This document shows positions 70 through 7,046 of a DNA stretch of 7,046 nucleotides, piece after piece. The notes beneath the pieces were generated by a model. That model worked only from the letters and a program-made list of their open reading frames with translations, was not told the DNA's origin and made no database searches. The translations under genes were made by a program, and so were the position numbers. Positions within the stretch are counted from its first letter, which is position 1. Each line of letters starts with the position of its first letter. Source of the stretch: an uncultured Bacteroidales bacterium (GTDB lineage Bacteria > Bacteroidota > Bacteroidia > Bacteroidales > Paludibacteraceae); NCBI GenBank assembly GCA_903873355.1, contig CAIQOG010000327.1, positions 1 to 7,046 on the forward strand, given 5' to 3'.

Positions 70-3000
70 ATGTCTCTGTTTCAACCATCAGTAAGTTCCA
101 AATACCTTAAAACTCTTGATAAACAAGCGGTACTGGCTGCCTACACTAAATTTAAAGCTCATTTTCATAATCCTGCAATTCAGGAAAATATTCGTAACAG
201 CAAAGAAGAACAGTATCAGGGTGAGTTTCTGATTGACTTGTTTGTGAATGTGTTGGGTTATACCAAACATCCTTCGGCTGAATATAACCTGACCACCGAA
301 TACAAAAACGTGAAGGACAGCAAAAAAGCCGATGGAGCAATTCTATCCGCACAAACAATGGGGCATGCCCCATTGTCTTCTGCTCCTCTGTCTTCTACTC
401 CTCTGCCGAAGAAAATAGTAGCAGTTATCGAACTGAAAGGAACCAATACCACCGATTTAGGACATGTGGAAGCACAGGCTTTCGGGTATAAAAATAATCA
501 ACCGGAATGTGTGTATGTGATTACTTCCAACTTTGAGAAGCTGCGGTTTTATATCGACAATGCCATTGAATTTCTGGAATTTAATCTGTTCACACTCACC
601 GAAAAAGATTTTGAACTGCTTTATCTTTGTCTGGCTTACTCACAAATAGAAAAGGGAATACCGAAAAAGATTAAAGATGAATCGATAAGTCACGAGGATG
701 ATATTACCAAACAATTGTACCGCGATTATTCGCTGTTCAAACGGGAATTGCATGCCGATTTGGTGGCGAAAAACCCTGAATACGACACGCTGGTGCTATT
801 CCGAAAATCACAAAAACTTCTTTCCCGCTTTCTGTTTCTGTTTTTTGCCGAAGACCGTGAATTACTTCCGCCTAATTCCGTCCGACTGATTCTGAATCAG
901 TGGCAACAACTCCGTGAACTTGATGAATACAGTCCCCTTTACAGCCGTTTCAAAAAATACTTTGGCTATCTGAACACCGGCTACAAAGGCAAACAACATG
1001 ATGTGTTTGCGTATAATGGTGGATTGTTTAAGCCCGATGCCATACTGGATTCGGTGCAGATAGATGATGACTTGCTTTATCGGCACACGGCTAAGATATC
1101 CGACTACGATTTTGCCAGCGAAGTGGATGTAAACATTCTGGGGCATATTTTCGAAAACTCGCTGAATGAACTGGACGAGCTAAAAGCAGAAATAGCCGGA
1201 GAAACTATCGACAAATCGAAAACCAAACGCAAGAAAGATGGTGTTTTCTATACCCCGAAATACATTACCAAATACATTGTCGACAATACGGTAGGACGAC
1301 TGTGTGAAGAGAAGAAAGCCGAAATCGGCATAACAACGGGGCATGCCCCGTTGATGGAAAGTGGGCATGCCATCACAACAACAACAAGGGGGCATGCCCC
1401 CACAACAACAAGGGGGCATGCCCCCACAACAACAAGGGGGCATGCCCCCTTGCAAAAGAAAACAAAACAAGCGTTATCTGATAAACTTGCTCAGTACAGG
1501 GAATGGTTGTTGCAAATCAGTATTTGCGATCCGGCCTGCGGGTCAGGGGCTTTTCTGAATCAGGCACTGAATTTTCTGATTGACGAGCATCGCTATATTG
1601 ACGAACTGCAAGCCAAACTCTTTGGTGATGCGTTGGTGCTGAGCAATATTGAAAATACCATTCTGGAAAACAATCTCTTTGGTGTTGATCTGAACGAAGA
1701 AAGTGTGGAAATTGCCCGTCTGTCACTTTGGCTACGCACCGCGCAACCCAACCGCAAACTAAACGACCTGAGCCGAAACATTAAATGTGGCAATTCATTG
1801 ATTGACGACCCGGCTGTGGCAGGTGAGAAAGCGTTCGATTGGGAGCGTGAATTCCCGCAGGTGTTTGTACAAAAACAAAAAATTGCATGGCATATTACTA
1901 CTGCCACTCATAATTCGAGATATTCACAGCGGATGTTCGATAATTATGTAAAGTTAGGTGAACCGGTGTGGCTCTCAGAAGTAGAGGAGTTGATAGTAAG
2001 TAAAACTATTGCAGAAATAGCCGTAAAAGACAACCTAAATATTTTGGCATACAATATTTGTGGTGATCACATGCATCTGCTACTTGCATGTGAAAAAGAA
2101 GAAGTAGATAAAATCGTAGGTAAACTGAAGTCTATGTCTGCCCGGGCATGCAATATCGCTATGGGACGAACGATTCCGATTCCGACTCCTACTCCGGGAA
2201 CAACAAGGGGGCATGCCCACTTGTCCACAACCGATACGATAGAAACAAGTGGGCATGCCCACTTGCTGGAAAAGCATGCCCCCTTGTCGACAGAGACGGG
2301 ATCGGTACCCGCACACGGCGAAACGCAAACGCAACTATGGACGCAAAAATTCGGAAAAAAAGAAATAACAAGCGACGAACAGCTATATAATACCATCCAA
2401 TATATTGAAAATAATAGGGTGAAGCACGGGTTGCCCGAACTATCCTGCGATGGAGATGCTCAGAACAAGGGGGCAAGCCCCCTTGTCATCGCTCCGATAT
2501 CGGAGGCTACCGTATCCTCTATCCCCATTGTCTTTCCGCAAACCGTCTCTCCCCAGCATGCTTTCCGTCCCGAATATAAAGGTGGTTTTGATGTGGTGAT
2601 TGGAAATCCGCCGTATGGTGCAACATTTTCTGAAAACCATAAAAATTATTTCATCGGAAAATTCAAAATTTCACCAACGATTTTAGATACCTATTTACTT
2701 TTTATTCTCCACTCTATGTCGTTGATAGAGGAAAATGGATTTTTAGGTTTTATTATTCCATCAACCTGGCTATATATGACTCAGTTTTCTGATTTTAGAG
2801 TAAAATTGGTAAAAAATTATGAATTGTCGGAAATCAGACTTTTTAGAAATGCAATTTTTGAAGAAGCAACAGTTGAAACATGTATTGCGTTATTAAAAAA
2901 TAACAGCCCTTTAGCAGATAGTTTATATAACTATAAAGAAATTAATGGTTTAGAGATTTTGAATGATATTTCTGTAACCCAAAAATCAATATTAAATGAC

Positions 3001-3930
3001 ACAAATGTAAGTCTGTTGCTTAAGAATATTTCAATAGATAAACTTTATCAAAAGATTTCAGAAAACAATTCTCTTGATAAATTCACAAAAATAATTTGTG
3101 GTTTAACTCCATATAGATTAGGTAAGGGTAATCCAAAACAAACACAAGATATTGTTGAAAATCGCCTATTTGATTCAAACTTCAAAAAAGACGAGACGTA
3201 TAGGCAGTATTTAATGGGCAGGGATTTTAATAGATATATTTGGCAGATTGAACAAGAGCGATGGATTAGTTATGGAGATTGGTTAGCAGAGCCAAGATAT
3301 GCCGCACCATTTGATGTGCCACAAAAAATTATTTTAAGACAAACTTCTGATAGAATTATTGCACATCTTGATACAAATAAATATGTATCACTTAAGAATG
3401 TCCATAATTTAGAAATTGTGAATTCTGAAATTGACTATAAATTCTTATTGTCAGTATTAAACTCAAAATTATTAGATTGGTGGTATCAACAATTAATTCC
3501 AGAAAAAGGAAGAGTTTTTGCTGAAGTTAAAGTTATAAACCTAAAGAAGTTACCCATTAAAATTGCTCCCGACCAACAACCCTTTATCGCCAAAGCCAAC
3601 CAAATGCTTTCGTTGAACAAAGAGTTGCAGGAAGCCACAGCTAAATTTCAACGGAGTTTGGTTCGTGAGTTTTCATTAGAGAGTTTATCCTCAAAGCTTC
3701 AAAACTGGCATACGCTGAGTTATGCCGAATTTATCAAAGAGTTGGATAAGTTGAAAGTAAAACTCTCGCTGCATCAAAAGGCAGAATGGGAAAGCTATTT
3801 CCGGCAGGAAGCCGATAACGCCCGCACCATCAAAACACAGATTGACAGCACCGACCGGGAAATAGACCGCATGGTTTACGAGCTTTATGGATTGACAGAA
3901 GAGGAAATCGGGATAGTGGAAAATTCGTAA
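70..3930 (+). CDS. Type IIG (Eco57I-like) restriction-modification enzyme with an internal RAYT-like HUH domain and in-frame palindromes
   Basis: A single-chain enzyme expected to methylate adenine N6 at its recognition site and cut unmodified DNA. The N-terminal nuclease shows D88 and E121-x-K123 (within VIELKGT). A helical region leads to methylase motif X (GVFYTPKYI, 391-399), motif I (DPACGSGAFL, 487-496), an acidic motif II (GVDLNEES, 538-545), CGNSL (573-577) and catalytic NPPY (846-849). The C-terminal third resembles TaqI-like specificity domains and ends in a helical tail (MVYELYGLTEEEI). Three things are odd. Residues about 602-835 are extra: FPQVF runs into a RAYT-like domain and the methylase resumes at GGFDVVIGNPPYG. 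Palindrome-encoded GHAPL peptides occur at several sites. Base composition changes sharply after NPPY. Without the insert the protein is about 1050 residues, my estimate of normal size. A PglX-type methylase is less likely because the nuclease motif is present. Target sequence and activity are unknown. Confidence 0.9.
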   Translation: MSLFQPSVSSKYLKTLDKQAVLAAYTKFKAHFHNPAIQENIRNSKEEQYQGEFLIDLFVNVLGYTKHPSAEYNLTTEYKNVKDSKKADGAILSAQTMGHAPLSSAPLSSTPLPKKIVAVIELKGTNTTDLGHVEAQAFGYKNNQPECVYVITSNFEKLRFYIDNAIEFLEFNLFTLTEKDFELLYLCLAYSQIEKGIPKKIKDESISHEDDITKQLYRDYSLFKRELHADLVAKNPEYDTLVLFRKSQKLLSRFLFLFFAEDRELLPPNSVRLILNQWQQLRELDEYSPLYSRFKKYFGYLNTGYKGKQHDVFAYNGGLFKPDAILDSVQIDDDLLYRHTAKISDYDFASEVDVNILGHIFENSLNELDELKAEIAGETIDKSKTKRKKDGVFYTPKYITKYIVDNTVGRLCEEKKAEIGITTGHAPLMESGHAITTTTRGHAPTTTRGHAPTTTRGHAPLQKKTKQALSDKLAQYREWLLQISICDPACGSGAFLNQALNFLIDEHRYIDELQAKLFGDALVLSNIENTILENNLFGVDLNEESVEIARLSLWLRTAQPNRKLNDLSRNIKCGNSLIDDPAVAGEKAFDWEREFPQVFVQKQKIAWHITTATHNSRYSQRMFDNYVKLGEPVWLSEVEELIVSKTIAEIAVKDNLNILAYNICGDHMHLLLACEKEEVDKIVGKLKSMSARACNIAMGRTIPIPTPTPGTTRGHAHLSTTDTIETSGHAHLLEKHAPLSTETGSVPAHGETQTQLWTQKFGKKEITSDEQLYNTIQYIENNRVKHGLPELSCDGDAQNKGASPLVIAPISEATVSSIPIVFPQTVSPQHAFRPEYKGGFDVVIGNPPYGATFSENHKNYFIGKFKISPTILDTYLLFILHSMSLIEENGFLGFIIPSTWLYMTQFSDFRVKLVKNYELSEIRLFRNAIFEEATVETCIALLKNNSPLADSLYNYKEINGLEILNDISVTQKSILNDTNVSLLLKNISIDKLYQKISENNSLDKFTKIICGLTPYRLGKGNPKQTQDIVENRLFDSNFKKDETYRQYLMGRDFNRYIWQIEQERWISYGDWLAEPRYAAPFDVPQKIILRQTSDRIIAHLDTNKYVSLKNVHNLEIVNSEIDYKFLLSVLNSKLLDWWYQQLIPEKGRVFAEVKVINLKKLPIKIAPDQQPFIAKANQMLSLNKELQEATAKFQRSLVREFSLESLSSKLQNWHTLSYAEFIKELDKLKVKLSLHQKAEWESYFRQEADNARTIKTQIDSTDREIDRMVYELYGLTEEEIGIVENS
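355..376. repeat. Palindrome 1, perfect 22 bp, inside the nuclease domain
   Basis: The 20 bp core CAATGGGGCATGCCCCATTG at 356-375 is extended by A and T to a perfect 22 bp palindrome. It encodes T-M-G-H-A-P-L-S in the restriction enzyme and falls between the two catalytic segments D88 and E121-x-K123 of the nuclease fold, probably in a loop. Confidence 0.9.
376..405 (+). repeat. 15 bp tandem duplication directly after palindrome 1
   Basis: Two 15 bp units (376-390 and 391-405) differ at one base and encode SSAPL and SSTPL, continuing the pentapeptide rhythm of the preceding GHAPL. This lengthens the loop in the nuclease domain. It may derive from local slippage next to the palindrome. Confidence 0.75.
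1334..1353. repeat. Palindrome 2, perfect 20 bp
   Basis: CAACGGGGCATGCCCCGTTG is a perfect palindrome encoding T-G-H-A-P-L. Compared with palindrome 1, the variable arm position is C on the left and G on the right instead of T and A, so both arms changed together. It lies between methylase motifs X and I. Confidence 0.9.
1358..1377. repeat. Palindrome 3, degenerate
   Basis: The sequence is centred on GGCATGCC (1364-1371) but its arms no longer pair: the right arm reads ATCACA instead of a CCnTTG-like end. It encodes S-G-H-A-I-T, in the same reading phase as the intact copies. It looks like a decayed copy just upstream of the tandem array. Confidence 0.6.
1378..1449 (+). repeat. Three perfect 24 bp tandem repeats, each with a 14 bp palindrome (palindromes 4-6)
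   Basis: Units 1378-1401, 1402-1425 and 1426-1449 are identical and encode TTTRGHAP three times (residues 437-460). Each contains GGGGGCATGCCCCC (1388-1401, 1412-1425, 1436-1449). The unit length is a multiple of three, so changes in copy number would alter linker length without shifting the frame. The array lies between motif X and motif I of the methylase. It is too regular and too short-spaced for a CRISPR array. Confidence 0.92.
1433..1452. repeat. Palindrome 6, perfect 20 bp, last unit of the tandem array
   Basis: CAAGGGGGCATGCCCCCTTG is the only unit of the 24 bp array with complete CAA/TTG outer arms. The first two units end in ACA, the start of the next unit. This suggests that the array grew by duplication from this complete copy. 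Confidence 0.85.
2203..2224. repeat. Palindrome 7, 22 bp with one unpaired position
   Basis: The core CAAGGGGGCATGCCCACTTG (2204-2223) with outer A and T has a single G-A mismatch between arms. It encodes T-R-G-H-A-H-L-S. It looks intermediate between the G-C form (palindrome 6) and the T-A form (palindrome 8) at that position. It lies in the linker inside the RAYT-like domain. Confidence 0.85.
2246..2265. repeat. Palindrome 8, perfect 20 bp
   Basis: CAAGTGGGCATGCCCACTTG is a perfect palindrome encoding T-S-G-H-A-H-L. The G-to-T change in the left arm is matched by C-to-A in the right arm relative to palindrome 6. It lies 22 bp after palindrome 7, inside the RAYT-like domain. Confidence 0.9.
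2267..2287. repeat. Palindrome 9, half-site
   Basis: The right half GCATGCCCCCTTGT (2274-2287) is intact, while the left half reads TGGAAAA and does not pair. It encodes E-K-H-A-P-L-S in the same phase as the complete copies. It is either a decayed copy or a partial insertion beside palindrome 8. Confidence 0.7.
2465..2486. repeat. Palindrome 10, 22 bp with a central mismatch and a different reading phase
   Basis: The core CAAGGGGGCAAGCCCCCTTG (2466-2485), flanked by A and T, pairs along both full arms, but the central GCATGC is GCAAGC. It is read one base out of phase with the other copies and encodes K-G-A-S-P-L. The central change turns what would be a cysteine codon (TGC) into serine (AGC). 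It sits after the RAYT-like domain and before the NPPY motif. Confidence 0.85.
2620..3545 (+). other. A+T-rich segment of the restriction enzyme gene (late methylase plus specificity region)
   Basis: Counted in 60 bp samples, G+C is 27% at 2761-2820 and 23% at 3001-3060, against 48% at 1081-1140, 40% at 3661-3720 and 47% at 3841-3900. The shift starts just after the NPPY motif codons and ends near the codons for LKKLPI (about residue 1160). The segment covers the methylase part after motif IV and the TaqI-like specificity region. This is the pattern expected if a specificity cassette was exchanged between conserved anchors; the boundaries are approximate. Confidence 0.7.
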
Positions 3931-3957: not shown

Positions 3958-5805
3958 ATGAAAGTAATCCTAAATTATCTTCCACCCGGTCGGATCGATC
4001 AGCCGTCCTCGTCGCTTTCAATACTTCAAAGTTTTTTGAATCACAACGGCATTCAGGCAAAGACAATTTACTGGAATATATTGATGCTTCCCACCACATT
4101 TTATTACGAAAATAGTCACGAAGTTTTTCGAAATATATTTCCGTTTCTGGCTGATATTGCCGACGAATTCAACGATCAGAAAGTCCGGAAAAGATTAGTT
4201 TCGTATCTTCAGACTTTAAAACCTTTTTTCAAAACAACGGATAATTTCTACAGCAACTCGCTGGATGAGATTCGTAAAAACACTCATCAGCTAATCCATA
4301 CTGAATTATTGAAAGACGGGAATGAAGCTGTACTCTATGGTATATCCGCCCGCTTTTATCAATGGATTCCGGGGCGAATTCTGGCAAAAGCAATTAAACA
4401 ACTGTACCCGACAGCTAAAATTGTGGTAGGCGGGTTGAGTAATCGTAATAGTGCGATTGCCATGTTGAAAAAGAATCCCGATTTTGATTATGCCATTTGG
4501 GGTGAGGGTGAATATCCGTTGCTCGACCTGTGTAATCATCTGGAAAATAATTCAGTACGGCTTGAAGAGATTCCCCGGTTTGTTTATCGGGTCGACGATG
4601 AGGTTATTGCCAACAAACCCATGAAATCAACCTATCTCGATTTCACAGATTATATTTTCCCCGACATAAGTGACTATTTCGAAACACTTGCCGCCAACAA
4701 AATTTCAAATGAAAGTGTACAAATACTGATTCATTCCGTTTGTGGTTGTCGTTGGAATAAATGTTCGTTTTGCAACTACTCAAACGACAAGGTATTTCGC
4801 GAACGTACAGCCGAAAATATCTTTGGGGAAATAAAAAGCTGTTCAGAAAAATACGGTATCAACAACTTTTATATGGCCGACAATGAGATGGTTGGCAAAA
4901 ATATTGACCGTTTTGAAAAATTGCTTGATTTGTTGATTGAATTTAATCAGGATACCTCCCGCGACTTCAGAATTTTTGGCGAAATGATTCCTTCTTCGGG
5001 GATAACTCCGGCTATTTTCAGTAAAATGTCAAGGGCAGGTTTTAAATTCCTGTTTATAGGCTACGAGGCGGTTACAGATTCGCTGTTGAAAAAGATGAAG
5101 AAAGAGAATTCTTTTTCCGAAAACATCTACTTTGTAAAACAAGCTTTAAAGAACAATATCAAACCACAGGTAAATATCATTCAGGAAATTCCCGACGAAA
5201 CCGACGATGACATTCTGGAAAGCATTAATAACCTGCACTTTATGAGGTTCTTTTTTCATGATGGTGAAATAAGCTTTGCCCATGAATTTATGATATTGAA
5301 CTTATATAAAAGTACCGAATATTTCAGAAAAATGCCCGACGATGAAAAAGAGAATTACTGCATAAATCCTTTCAATGATTTTATTCCGCAGGCATTTATA
5401 TCTAAGCATGAAGGCTGGGATTTCTTTAGTTATCGAAGGAATTATTTAAAAAACCACTCGCTTTGGCTCGATTTTATGAATATTGAGCAGTTTTACCGAA
5501 GAAACAAATTCAGGTATATAGTAACTAACGATGACTCAGGATTAACTTTTACGGAATATTTCAATAATGATAAAATCAGGAATATCAGACTCAATAACCC
5601 TGTGTATTATGATATTTTAGTTGAGACGGAAAACAAAATTGAATCTTTTGATTGGTTATTCCACAAATTGCTGCTAAAGTATCCTGATTTGACTGAAAGT
5701 GAATTAACGGAATATTTGAAGGAGTTCAGATCAAACTACATCATCTATTGCAATGATGATTTTTCTTCCATCATATCGGTGATTAGCTTGGATAAGAATA
5801 CGTAG
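3958..5805 (+). CDS. Radical SAM protein with B12-binding-type N-terminal domain, similar to RiPP-maturation enzymes
   Basis: A 615-residue cytoplasmic enzyme. Residues 1 to about 220 look like the B12-binding-type domain of cobalamin-dependent radical SAM proteins, with IVVGGLS (155-161) and IWGEGEYPLLDL (180-191). No DxHxxG cobalamin motif was seen, which is common in this class. The cluster segment is CGCRWNKCSFCNY (262-274). The usual CxxxCxxC spacing is not met: C264-x4-C269-x2-C272, or C262-x6-C269-x2-C272. IGYEAVTDSLLKKMKK (367-382) is a typical core segment. The C-terminal extension (about 560-612) resembles the small end domain of radical SAM enzymes that modify ribosomal peptides, and the PSSSL start also fits that group. 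No precursor peptide gene is visible in the window. It follows the restriction gene by 27 bp with no promoter or terminator between, so co-transcription is likely. Substrate is unknown. Confidence 0.88.
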   Translation: MKVILNYLPPGRIDQPSSSLSILQSFLNHNGIQAKTIYWNILMLPTTFYYENSHEVFRNIFPFLADIADEFNDQKVRKRLVSYLQTLKPFFKTTDNFYSNSLDEIRKNTHQLIHTELLKDGNEAVLYGISARFYQWIPGRILAKAIKQLYPTAKIVVGGLSNRNSAIAMLKKNPDFDYAIWGEGEYPLLDLCNHLENNSVRLEEIPRFVYRVDDEVIANKPMKSTYLDFTDYIFPDISDYFETLAANKISNESVQILIHSVCGCRWNKCSFCNYSNDKVFRERTAENIFGEIKSCSEKYGINNFYMADNEMVGKNIDRFEKLLDLLIEFNQDTSRDFRIFGEMIPSSGITPAIFSKMSRAGFKFLFIGYEAVTDSLLKKMKKENSFSENIYFVKQALKNNIKPQVNIIQEIPDETDDDILESINNLHFMRFFFHDGEISFAHEFMILNLYKSTEYFRKMPDDEKENYCINPFNDFIPQAFISKHEGWDFFSYRRNYLKNHSLWLDFMNIEQFYRRNKFRYIVTNDDSGLTFTEYFNNDKIRNIRLNNPVYYDILVETENKIESFDWLFHKLLLKYPDLTESELTEYLKEFRSNYIIYCNDDFSSIISVISLDKNT

Positions 5806-5814
5806 AGGATTTGT

Positions 5815-6849
5815 TTAAATCACTGTCATTTCACCACACATACTCTCACTCAGACGATGTTTCACTTCATCGAGTGAAGTGTATTCGCCCAAAAGGTACA
5901 TCAGTTTAGTAACAATGGCTTCGGTAGTGCAATCGTAACCGCTCATAACTCCGGCAGTAACCAGATTCAGACTGGTTTCGTAACGTCCCATTTCCACTGA
6001 ACCGGTGCTGCACTGCGATTTGTTTACAATGATGATACCACGATCGGTAGCTTCACGCAATGTGTCATAAAACCACTGGCGGCGGGGCGCATTTCCCGCT
6101 CCGAAACTTTCCAGCACAACAGCTTTCAGGTTGGGGATATTCAGAATTGCCCGAACGGTATTTTCGCTTATTCCGGGGAAAAGCTTTAGTATGGCTACAT
6201 TCTGGTCTATTTTTGTGCGAACCCGGAGATTGGTTCCTGAATGAGGATAATGAATGTAGGTTCTGAAGTATTTGATATGAACACCGGCCTTTGCTAAAGC
6301 CGGATAATTGTAGGAATTGAATGCGTTGAAATGTTCGGCATTTTTCTTGGTAGTGCGGTTTCCACGGAAAAGTGTGTCTTCAAAAAAGATACAAACTTCG
6401 GGCACAATCGGTTGGCCGCTTTCTTTGGCAGTTGCAATTTCGATGGCAGTCAGCAGATTTTCCTTCGCGTCCGATCGCATCATCCCGATAGGTAATTGCG
6501 CACCGGTGAAGATTACCGGTTTGGAAAGATTTTCGAGCATAAAACTCAGTGCTGAAGCCGAATAAGCCATTGTATCGGTACCGTGAAGTACCACAAAACC
6601 ATCGAAATCGTTGTAGTTTTCTTCAATAATCTTAGCTAATCGCTCCCAAACTTCGGGATGAACATCAGATGAATCTATTAAGGGTAGAAAAGGGATGCTT
6701 TTGATTCGAATACCGGTTTGCTTCAGTTCGGGCATGTAATCCAGCAAGCGGTCAAAATCGATAGGGCGTAATGCTCCGGTTGTGGGGTCTTCAGACATGC
6801 TGATAGTTCCGCCTGTAAAAAGTAATAAAACTGCACTTTCTTTTTCCAC
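5815..6849 (-). CDS. ansA: L-asparaginase, type I (cytoplasmic)
   Basis: Hydrolyses L-asparagine to aspartate and ammonia in the cytoplasm. At 344 residues it is close to E. coli AnsA (338) and has no signal peptide, unlike the periplasmic type II enzymes. Visible family motifs are FTGGTI (11-16, with the predicted nucleophile T15), DSSD (59-62), HGTDTMAYSASALSFMLEN (89-107, with T91 and D92) and FRGNRTTKK (161-169, with K168 the likely catalytic lysine). T167 aligns with the residue region of the allosteric asparagine site in E. coli AnsA, so similar control is possible. The start is GTG at 6849: the ATG at 6870 in the same frame is followed by TAA at 6858-6856, and the next Met (residue 18) would cut off the TGGTI motif. 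It converges on the radical SAM gene with 9 bp between stop codons. Confidence 0.96.
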   Translation of the reverse strand: MEKESAVLLLFTGGTISMSEDPTTGALRPIDFDRLLDYMPELKQTGIRIKSIPFLPLIDSSDVHPEVWERLAKIIEENYNDFDGFVVLHGTDTMAYSASALSFMLENLSKPVIFTGAQLPIGMMRSDAKENLLTAIEIATAKESGQPIVPEVCIFFEDTLFRGNRTTKKNAEHFNAFNSYNYPALAKAGVHIKYFRTYIHYPHSGTNLRVRTKIDQNVAILKLFPGISENTVRAILNIPNLKAVVLESFGAGNAPRRQWFYDTLREATDRGIIIVNKSQCSTGSVEMGRYETSLNLVTAGVMSGYDCTTEAIVTKLMYLLGEYTSLDEVKHRLSESMCGEMTVI

Positions 6850-6948: not shown

Positions 6949-7046
6949 ATGAACCGGATTTTTCTGATTGGATACATGGGCTCGGGCAAAACCACTATTG
7001 GCAAATTGCTTGCCGAAAGGTTAAACTATACTTTTATTGATATGGA
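6949..7046 (+). CDS. aroK: Shikimate kinase, N-terminal fragment (cut by the window end)
   Basis: Phosphorylates shikimate with ATP in the chorismate pathway for aromatic amino acids; cytoplasmic. Only 32 codons plus two bases are visible. They show the Walker A loop GYMGSGKT (8-15) inside IFLIGYMGSGKTTIGK and the segment LNYTFIDM, where the shikimate-binding FxDxD motif begins. This start is that of the family, with the first strand immediately after Met. A related small nucleotide kinase is possible, but the FIDM segment favours shikimate kinase. It is transcribed divergently from ansA. Confidence 0.9.
   Translation, partial: MNRIFLIGYMGSGKTTIGKLLAERLNYTFIDM

Follow-up and report, generated by a model that had tools for sequence, protein, structure and literature searches.

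All palindromes described here for the window (i.e., the whole stretch of DNA that was analyzed, 7,046 nucleotides) lie inside one long ORF of 1286 amino acids, whose product matched the Type IIG restriction-methylase family PDLC03609 of PADLOC with an E value of 7.5e-282. Pfam assigned Eco57I, N6_Mtase, TaqI_C and MmeI domains to it, and nuclease, methylase and specificity parts are all present in the one protein together with catalytic motifs, as is the rule for Type IIG enzymes. In an alignment of 31 proteins, D88, E121 and K123 (D88 and E121-x-K123 being what we take, by role, to be the nuclease motif), DPACGSG and NPPY (presumably methylase motif I and, as GNPPY, motif IV), both HuH histidines and the tyrosine of the domain described below were invariant. 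The window also contains genes for a radical SAM protein (3958-5805, + strand) and an L-asparaginase (5815-6849, - strand), both assigned by Pfam, and the start of a putative shikimate kinase gene (6949-7046, + strand), recognized by eye only.

Between methylase motifs I and IV, a HuH/Y1 domain that the first-pass annotation had missed is embedded in frame, with three palindromes (7, 8 and 9) inside it. Its match to PF01797 reached 34.3 and 40.2 bits, above the gathering score of 23, and the best-scoring NCBIfam transposase model was NF047646, REP-associated tyrosine transposase (RAYT). The latter match came in two stretches, and its scores of 43.7 (whole protein) and 50.9 (piece) missed the equivalog cut-off of 80, which is why the domain is named RAYT-like. 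A HuH motif together with a single candidate catalytic tyrosine places it in the Y1/HuH superfamily, catalysis being putative; H66, H68 and Y177 (domain numbering) and a W were invariant in 21 aligned domains, 24-65% identical to that of the window. Five aligned genes of the same enzyme family without the domain (hereafter unfused; L033, L038, L039, L046 and L053) had a shorter unrelated stretch at this place, or nothing. A comparison of residues 590-850 with long proteins yielded 781 matches, and in nearly all of the 120 listed Eco57I and Y1_Tnp occurred together, P0108 being the exception noticed among them; some sources already label the fused proteins as methylase/REP element-mobilizing transposase. 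The matches of a PDB sequence search were all weak and to TnpA (best E 0.015), no Rfam family reached its gathering score, and plasmid and phage records held no relative of the RAYT (E 1e-10 and 1e-8). Because the nuclease and methylase motifs are kept, the fused protein is probably a working restriction enzyme, which would carry its own REP-processing module.

With regard to the palindromes, the pattern CAANGGGGCATGCCCCNTTG with at most three mismatches matched the window eight times, always within 356-2485, against a chance mean of 0.01 and a maximum of 1 in 200 shuffles. Two decayed copies, at 1358 and 2267 (the register of the latter set by its GCATGC at 2274), raise the total to ten, four of them perfect over 20-22 bp and six imperfect or decayed (Table 1), in line with the first-pass annotation, which had counted about ten within this one coding sequence. 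The T-A, C-G and G-C variants that it had described for the perfect copies were recovered, as was the matched G-C to T-A change in palindrome 8; its statement that the arms change together applied to the perfect copies but not to palindrome 7, in which they do not. Nine of the ten copies share one reading phase (xGHAPL, KHAPL and variants), and palindrome 10 (KGASPL) is read in another. Three units of a 24-bp tandem repeat were found at 1376-1452, and therefore local duplication accounts for part of the family.

Table 1. Features of the fused restriction gene and of its palindromes (positions in the window).
Feature	Position	Strand	Basis
ORF of the Type IIG restriction-methylase, embedded RAYT-like domain included	70..3930	+	PADLOC, Pfam, NCBIfam
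Nuclease motif D88 and E121-x-K123 (assumed by role), palindrome 1 between them	331..438	+	Alignment of 31 proteins
Palindrome 1, perfect 22 bp, T-A variant	355..376	+	
Palindrome 2, perfect, C-G variant, linker before methylase	1334..1353	+	
Palindrome 3, decayed, GTGGGCATGCC core	1358..1377	+	
Palindrome 4, intact 14-bp centre with CACA at the right end, 24-bp tandem unit	1385..1404	+	
Palindrome 5, 14-bp centre intact, right end CACA, tandem unit	1409..1428	+	
Palindrome 6, perfect, G-C variant	1433..1452	+	
Methylase motif I (DPACGSG; presumed name)	1528..1548	+	Alignment
RAYT-like HuH/Y1 domain, between EFPQVF and GGFDVVIGNPPY	1873..2460	+	Pfam, NCBIfam, alignments
HuH motif D666-H667-M668-H669	2065..2076	+	Alignments
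Palindrome 7, one broken pair, HuH-Y linker	2204..2223	+	
Palindrome 8, in HuH-Y linker, perfect with a change to T-A at the second pair	2246..2265	+	
Palindrome 9, left arm decayed, HuH-Y linker	2267..2286	+	
Candidate catalytic tyrosine Y778 (YIENN), invariant	2401..2403	+	Alignments
Palindrome 10, central mismatch, after Y motif, KGASPL phase	2466..2485	+	
Methylase motif IV (GNPPY; presumed name)	2602..2616	+	Alignment

A genome scan, whose query alignment consisted of fused proteins only and from which the best 80 loci were kept, gave together with the window a set of 81 genes, 47 fused and 34 unfused. The loci were mostly titled Bacteroidota, and the titles outside this phylum were Chlorobiota (L026, L030), Thermus/Deinococcus (L048), Lentisphaeria (L052) and Cloacimonadota (L054). 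Among these best 80 loci and the matches listed, predicted RAYT-restriction fusions are widespread, mostly in Bacteroidota. Cultured strains with a fused gene include Algibacter amylolyticus DSM 29199 (L031) and Gelidibacter pelagius DF109 (L047). Palindromic 20-mers with at least nine of ten pairs were counted in these genes and compared with codon shuffles. The 47 fused genes had 141 of them (shuffle mean 10.1, maximum 14), with at least one in every gene, versus 16 in the 34 unfused genes (shuffle mean 8.65, maximum 17), two of which (L033, L038) had clear copies by eye. With 19 A/T-type sites left out, 122 sites of the G/C type were counted in 45/47 fused genes, 79 of them perfect. The stem is alike throughout, often CAAGGG or a variant, and the self-complementary centre varies from gene to gene (GCATGC, AGCATGCT, ATTAAT, TTTAAA, CTTAAG, ACATGT, TTGCAA, TCATGA and AGCTAGCT). 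Ten centre types were present in 40 genes, nine genes having more than one perfect type, and the centre was identical in 70/90 site pairs within genes versus 471/3826 between genes. Arms and centre differ together between genes, which bears out the earlier proposal that the palindrome is maintained as such. An accompanying claim, that the consensus has no stop codon in any of six frames, is correct for the GCATGC type but not in general, since the ATTAAT-type centres of relatives carry TAA in one frame.

Single-strand folding of five examples gave a stem of 8-9 bp and a 4-nt loop (-6.9 to -8.5 kcal/mol), and the ends of the element read (A)CAA...TTG(T). In the 30 genes in which all regions were measurable, pairs with the same 4-nt loop were closer to each other in the RAYT domain, with an AUC of 0.754 and 0/2000 permutations, all permutations of this kind ignoring phylogeny. 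The corresponding values were 0.489 for the N-half, 0.545 for the methylase after NPPY and 0.510 for the C-terminal half, and that of the RAYT was 0.743 once these three regions had been regressed out. When the finer core label was used, AUCs of 0.647 (7/2000) for the RAYT, 0.621 for the methylase, 0.622 for the C-terminal half and 0.532 for the N-half were obtained. Furthermore, the nearest RAYT neighbour had the same core in 23/40 genes (null mean 5.2) and the nearest N-half neighbour in 15/40, also above chance (2/2000); L008, L016, L029 and L040, with unrecognized borders, and L023, L049 and L054, with no perfect centre, were out of this test. Together with the comparison of 30 genes, it replaced an earlier test of 31 genes with wider domain borders, in which the core was shared by the RAYT neighbour in 18 and by the N-half neighbour in 8. 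What the palindrome loop tracks is the RAYT sequence, as opposed to the other parts of the enzyme; for the core label the picture is less clear. Group 3 TnpA_REPs have been described as needing both loop and stem features of their REPs (PMC8266576).

We consider it likely that the palindromes are REP-like hairpins and the cognate substrates of the RAYT-like HuH/Y1 domain encoded in the same Type IIG gene. Most likely, they spread in cis and are tolerated in loops, with activity and movement being inferred. In the mechanism we propose, the hairpin, with its stem of 8-9 bp and loop of 4 nt, would be bound by the RAYT-like domain in single-stranded DNA, then cut and rejoined by the domain's tyrosine, so that palindromes would be copied or converted, mostly into the domain's own gene. 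Selection on the restriction enzyme would then leave, as survivors, in-frame inserts in flexible loops, and it may be, as a guess, that the RAYT persists through the restriction enzyme.

Copies were also present elsewhere in the genomes of relatives. The pattern CAANGGGNNNNNNCCCNTTG occurred in 18/26 fused-gene genomes (those behind 27/46 fused loci), with 1-32 copies each and 0/26 for the reversed control; in the other eight, the fused gene had a GGA-type or imperfect copy that falls outside the pattern. In the genomes searched for 25/34 unfused loci, it occurred in 5/25, with 2/25 for the control. A set of 116 genomes assigned to one genus was also analyzed. Of the 24 copies in 20 of its regions, 21 lay outside ORF calls, among them two at the stop codon ending a RAYT fusion gene, and the ORFs that contained the other three encoded a RAYT or a RAYT fusion. 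Species differed in whether they had the palindrome at one syntenic intergenic site; the ends of the syntenic intergenic alignments were too diverged to define an inserted unit or a target duplication. Many dispersed copies had their centre approximately 13-60 bp from an ORF end. Twelve ORFs outside the PDLC03609-type family were scanned, namely three methylases (L116, L142, L151), seven SpoIIE-type sensors and two others, and several of their copies were imperfect. The sensors are seven genes of one genome (G002; L130-L134, L136), with in-frame palindromes mostly of the TCATGA or ATTAAT type, some imperfect, and L142:1856-4846, which is of the MmeI-type IIG kind, has three copies in frame that differ in their centres and of which one is imperfect. 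In viral contigs, at least 120 stretches had a loose form of the pattern; in the 80 listed, the palindrome was perfect in 20/93 matches, where 1.5 were expected, and a single contig accounted for 11 of the 20. None of these 80 had a RAYT-like ORF of at least 100 aa. In the viral contig L394, CAAGGGGACATGTCCCCTTG is repeated identically 11 times, mostly in the spaces that separate the predicted ORFs, and these copies are possibly terminators.

These dispersed copies bear on the alternative that fares best, which is compatible with a RAYT origin: the RAYT would be an immobile relic or domesticated, and the palindromes would be kept by gene conversion, by hairpin action in mRNA or DNA (attenuation, terminator-like) or through some other use by the fused protein. 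The low number of copies per genome and their position near ORF ends, as for terminators or REPs, are in line with it, as are the same palindromes at intergenic positions of viral contigs, where the stretches searched had no RAYT-like ORF, and the RAYT remnants with internal stops seen in G086, G076 and G113. On the other hand, the invariance of the HuH and Y residues among such divergent domains, the tracking of the RAYT by the loop and the species-level presence and absence at the syntenic site all speak against it, and we regard this alternative as unlikely.

The co-occurrence of palindrome and RAYT speaks to a second alternative. In a search of 40 loci, a RAYT match was found in 25/25 fused-gene genomes versus 1/15 others (G031, again in a long frame), the sole short-frame copy being that of G009 (229 aa). 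Across the 116 genomes, palindromes were present in 7/11 with a RAYT match versus 8/105 without (P 3.5e-5). The 11 matches include weak ones (E 2.8e-4 to 1e-5) and three that are broken, and the palindrome counted was in some genomes located within the RAYT gene or at its edge. Palindromes for which no RAYT was found occurred in G022, G027, G029 and G033 (two imperfect copies) and, among the 8/105, in G062 (12) and G111 (8); our guess is that these reflect draft gaps or loss of the RAYT. As to RAYTs outside long frames, L148:4340-5002 (- strand) encodes a stand-alone RAYT of 220 aa with palindrome-type linker peptides, its genome having a fused RAYT as well, and L318 and L319 contain RAYT frames of 328 and 331 aa that look stand-alone by eye.

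Rickettsia palindromic elements (RPE) are in-frame palindromes inside proteins, and the first-pass annotation had taken them as the nearest precedent. An RPE-like palindrome independent of the embedded domain, as proposed there, would fit the in-frame insertion into coding genes and the palindromes in the few genomes lacking a RAYT match; its near-confinement to fused genes within this enzyme family, the association with RAYT across the 116 genomes and the tracking of the RAYT sequence make it very improbable. REPs with their cognate HuH transposase are the nearer precedent, such a domain being part of the same ORF.

Reading phase and insert length argue for the palindrome itself, rather than the peptide, as the unit that is kept, which was also the earlier contention. 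Of the 122 G/C-type sites of fused genes, 47 are located in the HuH-Y linker, where two phases are used at homologous positions (32 and 15 sites), and in 14/45 genes the phase varies within the gene. The remaining phase, in which several centres contain TAA, is found at 2/122 sites. The insert sites, which are presumably surface loops, comprise linkers, the loop separating the nuclease residues, the stretch from HuH to Y, the part that follows the Y motif, and the C-terminal half. As the first-pass annotation had suggested, orthologues lacking the inserts were aligned, with up to two comparisons per site, and in 57/151 comparisons the gene with the copy had 5-7 extra residues, the rest having 4 or 8-40; the commonest inserts are accordingly of 5-7 residues, in frame and palindrome-sized. 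An example is RDLSPL in L009, absent from L071 and L072 (flank identity 96%). That the GHAPL/GACPL loops are instead functional in the protein and the palindrome a by-product would agree with the single phase seen at some places, such as after the Y motif (16/16); the two phases of the HuH-Y linker, the genes with several phases, the peptides that vary with the centre (GLIPL, GLQPL, GHVPL) and the copies between genes led us to reject selection on the peptide as highly implausible.

We likewise rejected, as hardly credible, that the palindromes are the restriction enzyme's own recognition or regulatory sites, i.e., a target of methylation or control. Their presence in the gene of the enzyme and in a few other methylase genes would agree with this, and so would the core-label AUC of the C-terminal half; that signal, however, fell to 0.532 (502/2000) with the other regions removed and was lost with the loop label, and 32/34 unfused orthologues have the corresponding nuclease, methylase and C-terminal parts with no clear copy. 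Finally, local duplication within the window gene as the only source, in spite of the tandem units, is practically excluded, as relatives have copies at other genomic places, unrelated genes included; the earlier reading, which absence of the palindrome from the rest of the genome and an origin by local duplication alone would have refuted, was not refuted in these relatives.

Taken as REP-like substrates of the embedded domain, the palindromes can be compared with known systems. TnpA_REP subclass 2.4, i.e., group 4 of Bertels, is described as abundant in Bacteroidetes and Cyanobacteria, with in-frame REPs inside the tnpA_REP genes, generally between HuH and Y, palindromes also outside the gene, symmetric 'double foot' REPs and the Y motif YIxNNP (PMC6006769). 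The gene described here resembles subclass 2.4, as characterized there, in its HuH/Y1 domain and in the in-frame palindromes between HuH and Y (three in the window). It differs from that description in that the transposase is a domain inside a restriction-methylase and palindromes are also found in the restriction parts, in the ends (A)CAA/TTG(T) instead of GT[AG]G, and in the Y motif, YIxNNR or close to it in the aligned domains and not YIxNNP. The main text of PMC6006769 contains no match for restriction, methylase or fused. As in canonical REPs, relatives have hairpin palindromes in or near the transposase gene and also at other genomic sites. The GT[AG]G foot 5' of the hairpin, the hallmark of canonical REPs, was lacking, with no such tetranucleotide in the flank counts.

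In-frame palindromes inside a protein are shared with RPEs, unlike which the gene also encodes a HuH domain in the same ORF; RPE-1 is described as longer (PMC3733652). According to the same source, intragenic GTAG/CGTC REPs are in frame, many of them in DNA synthesis and repair genes, as one or few insertions, dimers or clusters per host gene (PMC3733652), in contrast to the gene described here, which contains a family of palindromes along with a HuH domain of its own. The fused gene has the nuclease, methylase and specificity parts and motifs of Type IIG enzymes (PADLOC PDLC03609); what sets it apart from them is the additional RAYT-like domain that separates motif I from motif IV. With IS200/IS605 TnpA (HuH/Y1), elements of which have hairpin ends (PMC8266576), it shares the Pfam family and the catalytic motifs; the difference is that the domain lies within another enzyme and no autonomous insertion sequence was seen in the window.

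A literature search, which covered titles and the openings of abstracts with most subscription journals outside its scope, returned no RAYT inside a restriction enzyme. A 2017 survey by Bertels and colleagues reportedly forms part of the prior art. To our knowledge, the movement of a REP has never yet been caught. PMC8049555 belongs to the prior art as well, and how REPs spread is described as poorly understood (PMC8266576). In the fused genes, a transposase-like domain and its likely substrates are brought together in one ORF that is under selection as a restriction enzyme, and the ten centre types that occur naturally among 40 genes can be paired with the corresponding domains, which makes specificity and movement directly testable. 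REP elements are linked in this way with anti-phage restriction, two fields that were unconnected within the scope of the literature search.

More tentatively, these genes may represent what could be called an in-frame REPtron, i.e., a HuH domain with its cognate in-frame palindromes, translated within host enzymes as a mobile or self-editing module. Such a module would have settled repeatedly in restriction or modification genes (Type IIG, HmaB twice, PglXI, HsdR N-terminal), RecG and cobyrinate synthase, and in Type IIG it would use the enzyme's hold on the cell for its persistence and diversify the enzyme's loops. A RAYT domain profile, which is biased to IIG fusions because it was built mostly from them, had matches in 114/395 Bacteroidota genomes. 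The six strongest matches were all in long IIG frames, and most of the other matches listed were in short frames of stand-alone size. Among the matches listed in frames of at least 464 aa, 10/11 hosts were restriction or modification proteins, i.e., six IIG (two assigned by flanking sequence), two HmaB with the domain at different positions, one PglXI and one HsdR N-terminal protein, and the remaining one was RecG. The stretches L239, L240, L241, L242 and L243 contain such distant RAYT domains in HmaB (two positions), PglXI, RecG and the HsdR N-terminal protein; no perfect palindrome of at least 16 bp was present in L238-L243, the stretches with distant RAYT insertions.

In addition, 10 proteins consist of cobyrinate a,c-diamide synthase with a RAYT fused in frame at its C-terminal end, with loci at L200:2962-4839 (- strand), L201:1291-3099 (+ strand) and L182, and by sequence in L180, L181, L183, L250 and L251; the named relatives are Tenacibaculum and Flavivirga. 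These cobyrinate fusions carry an in-frame palindrome at the junction (L200) or inside the synthase part (L201), and another one at the stop in both.
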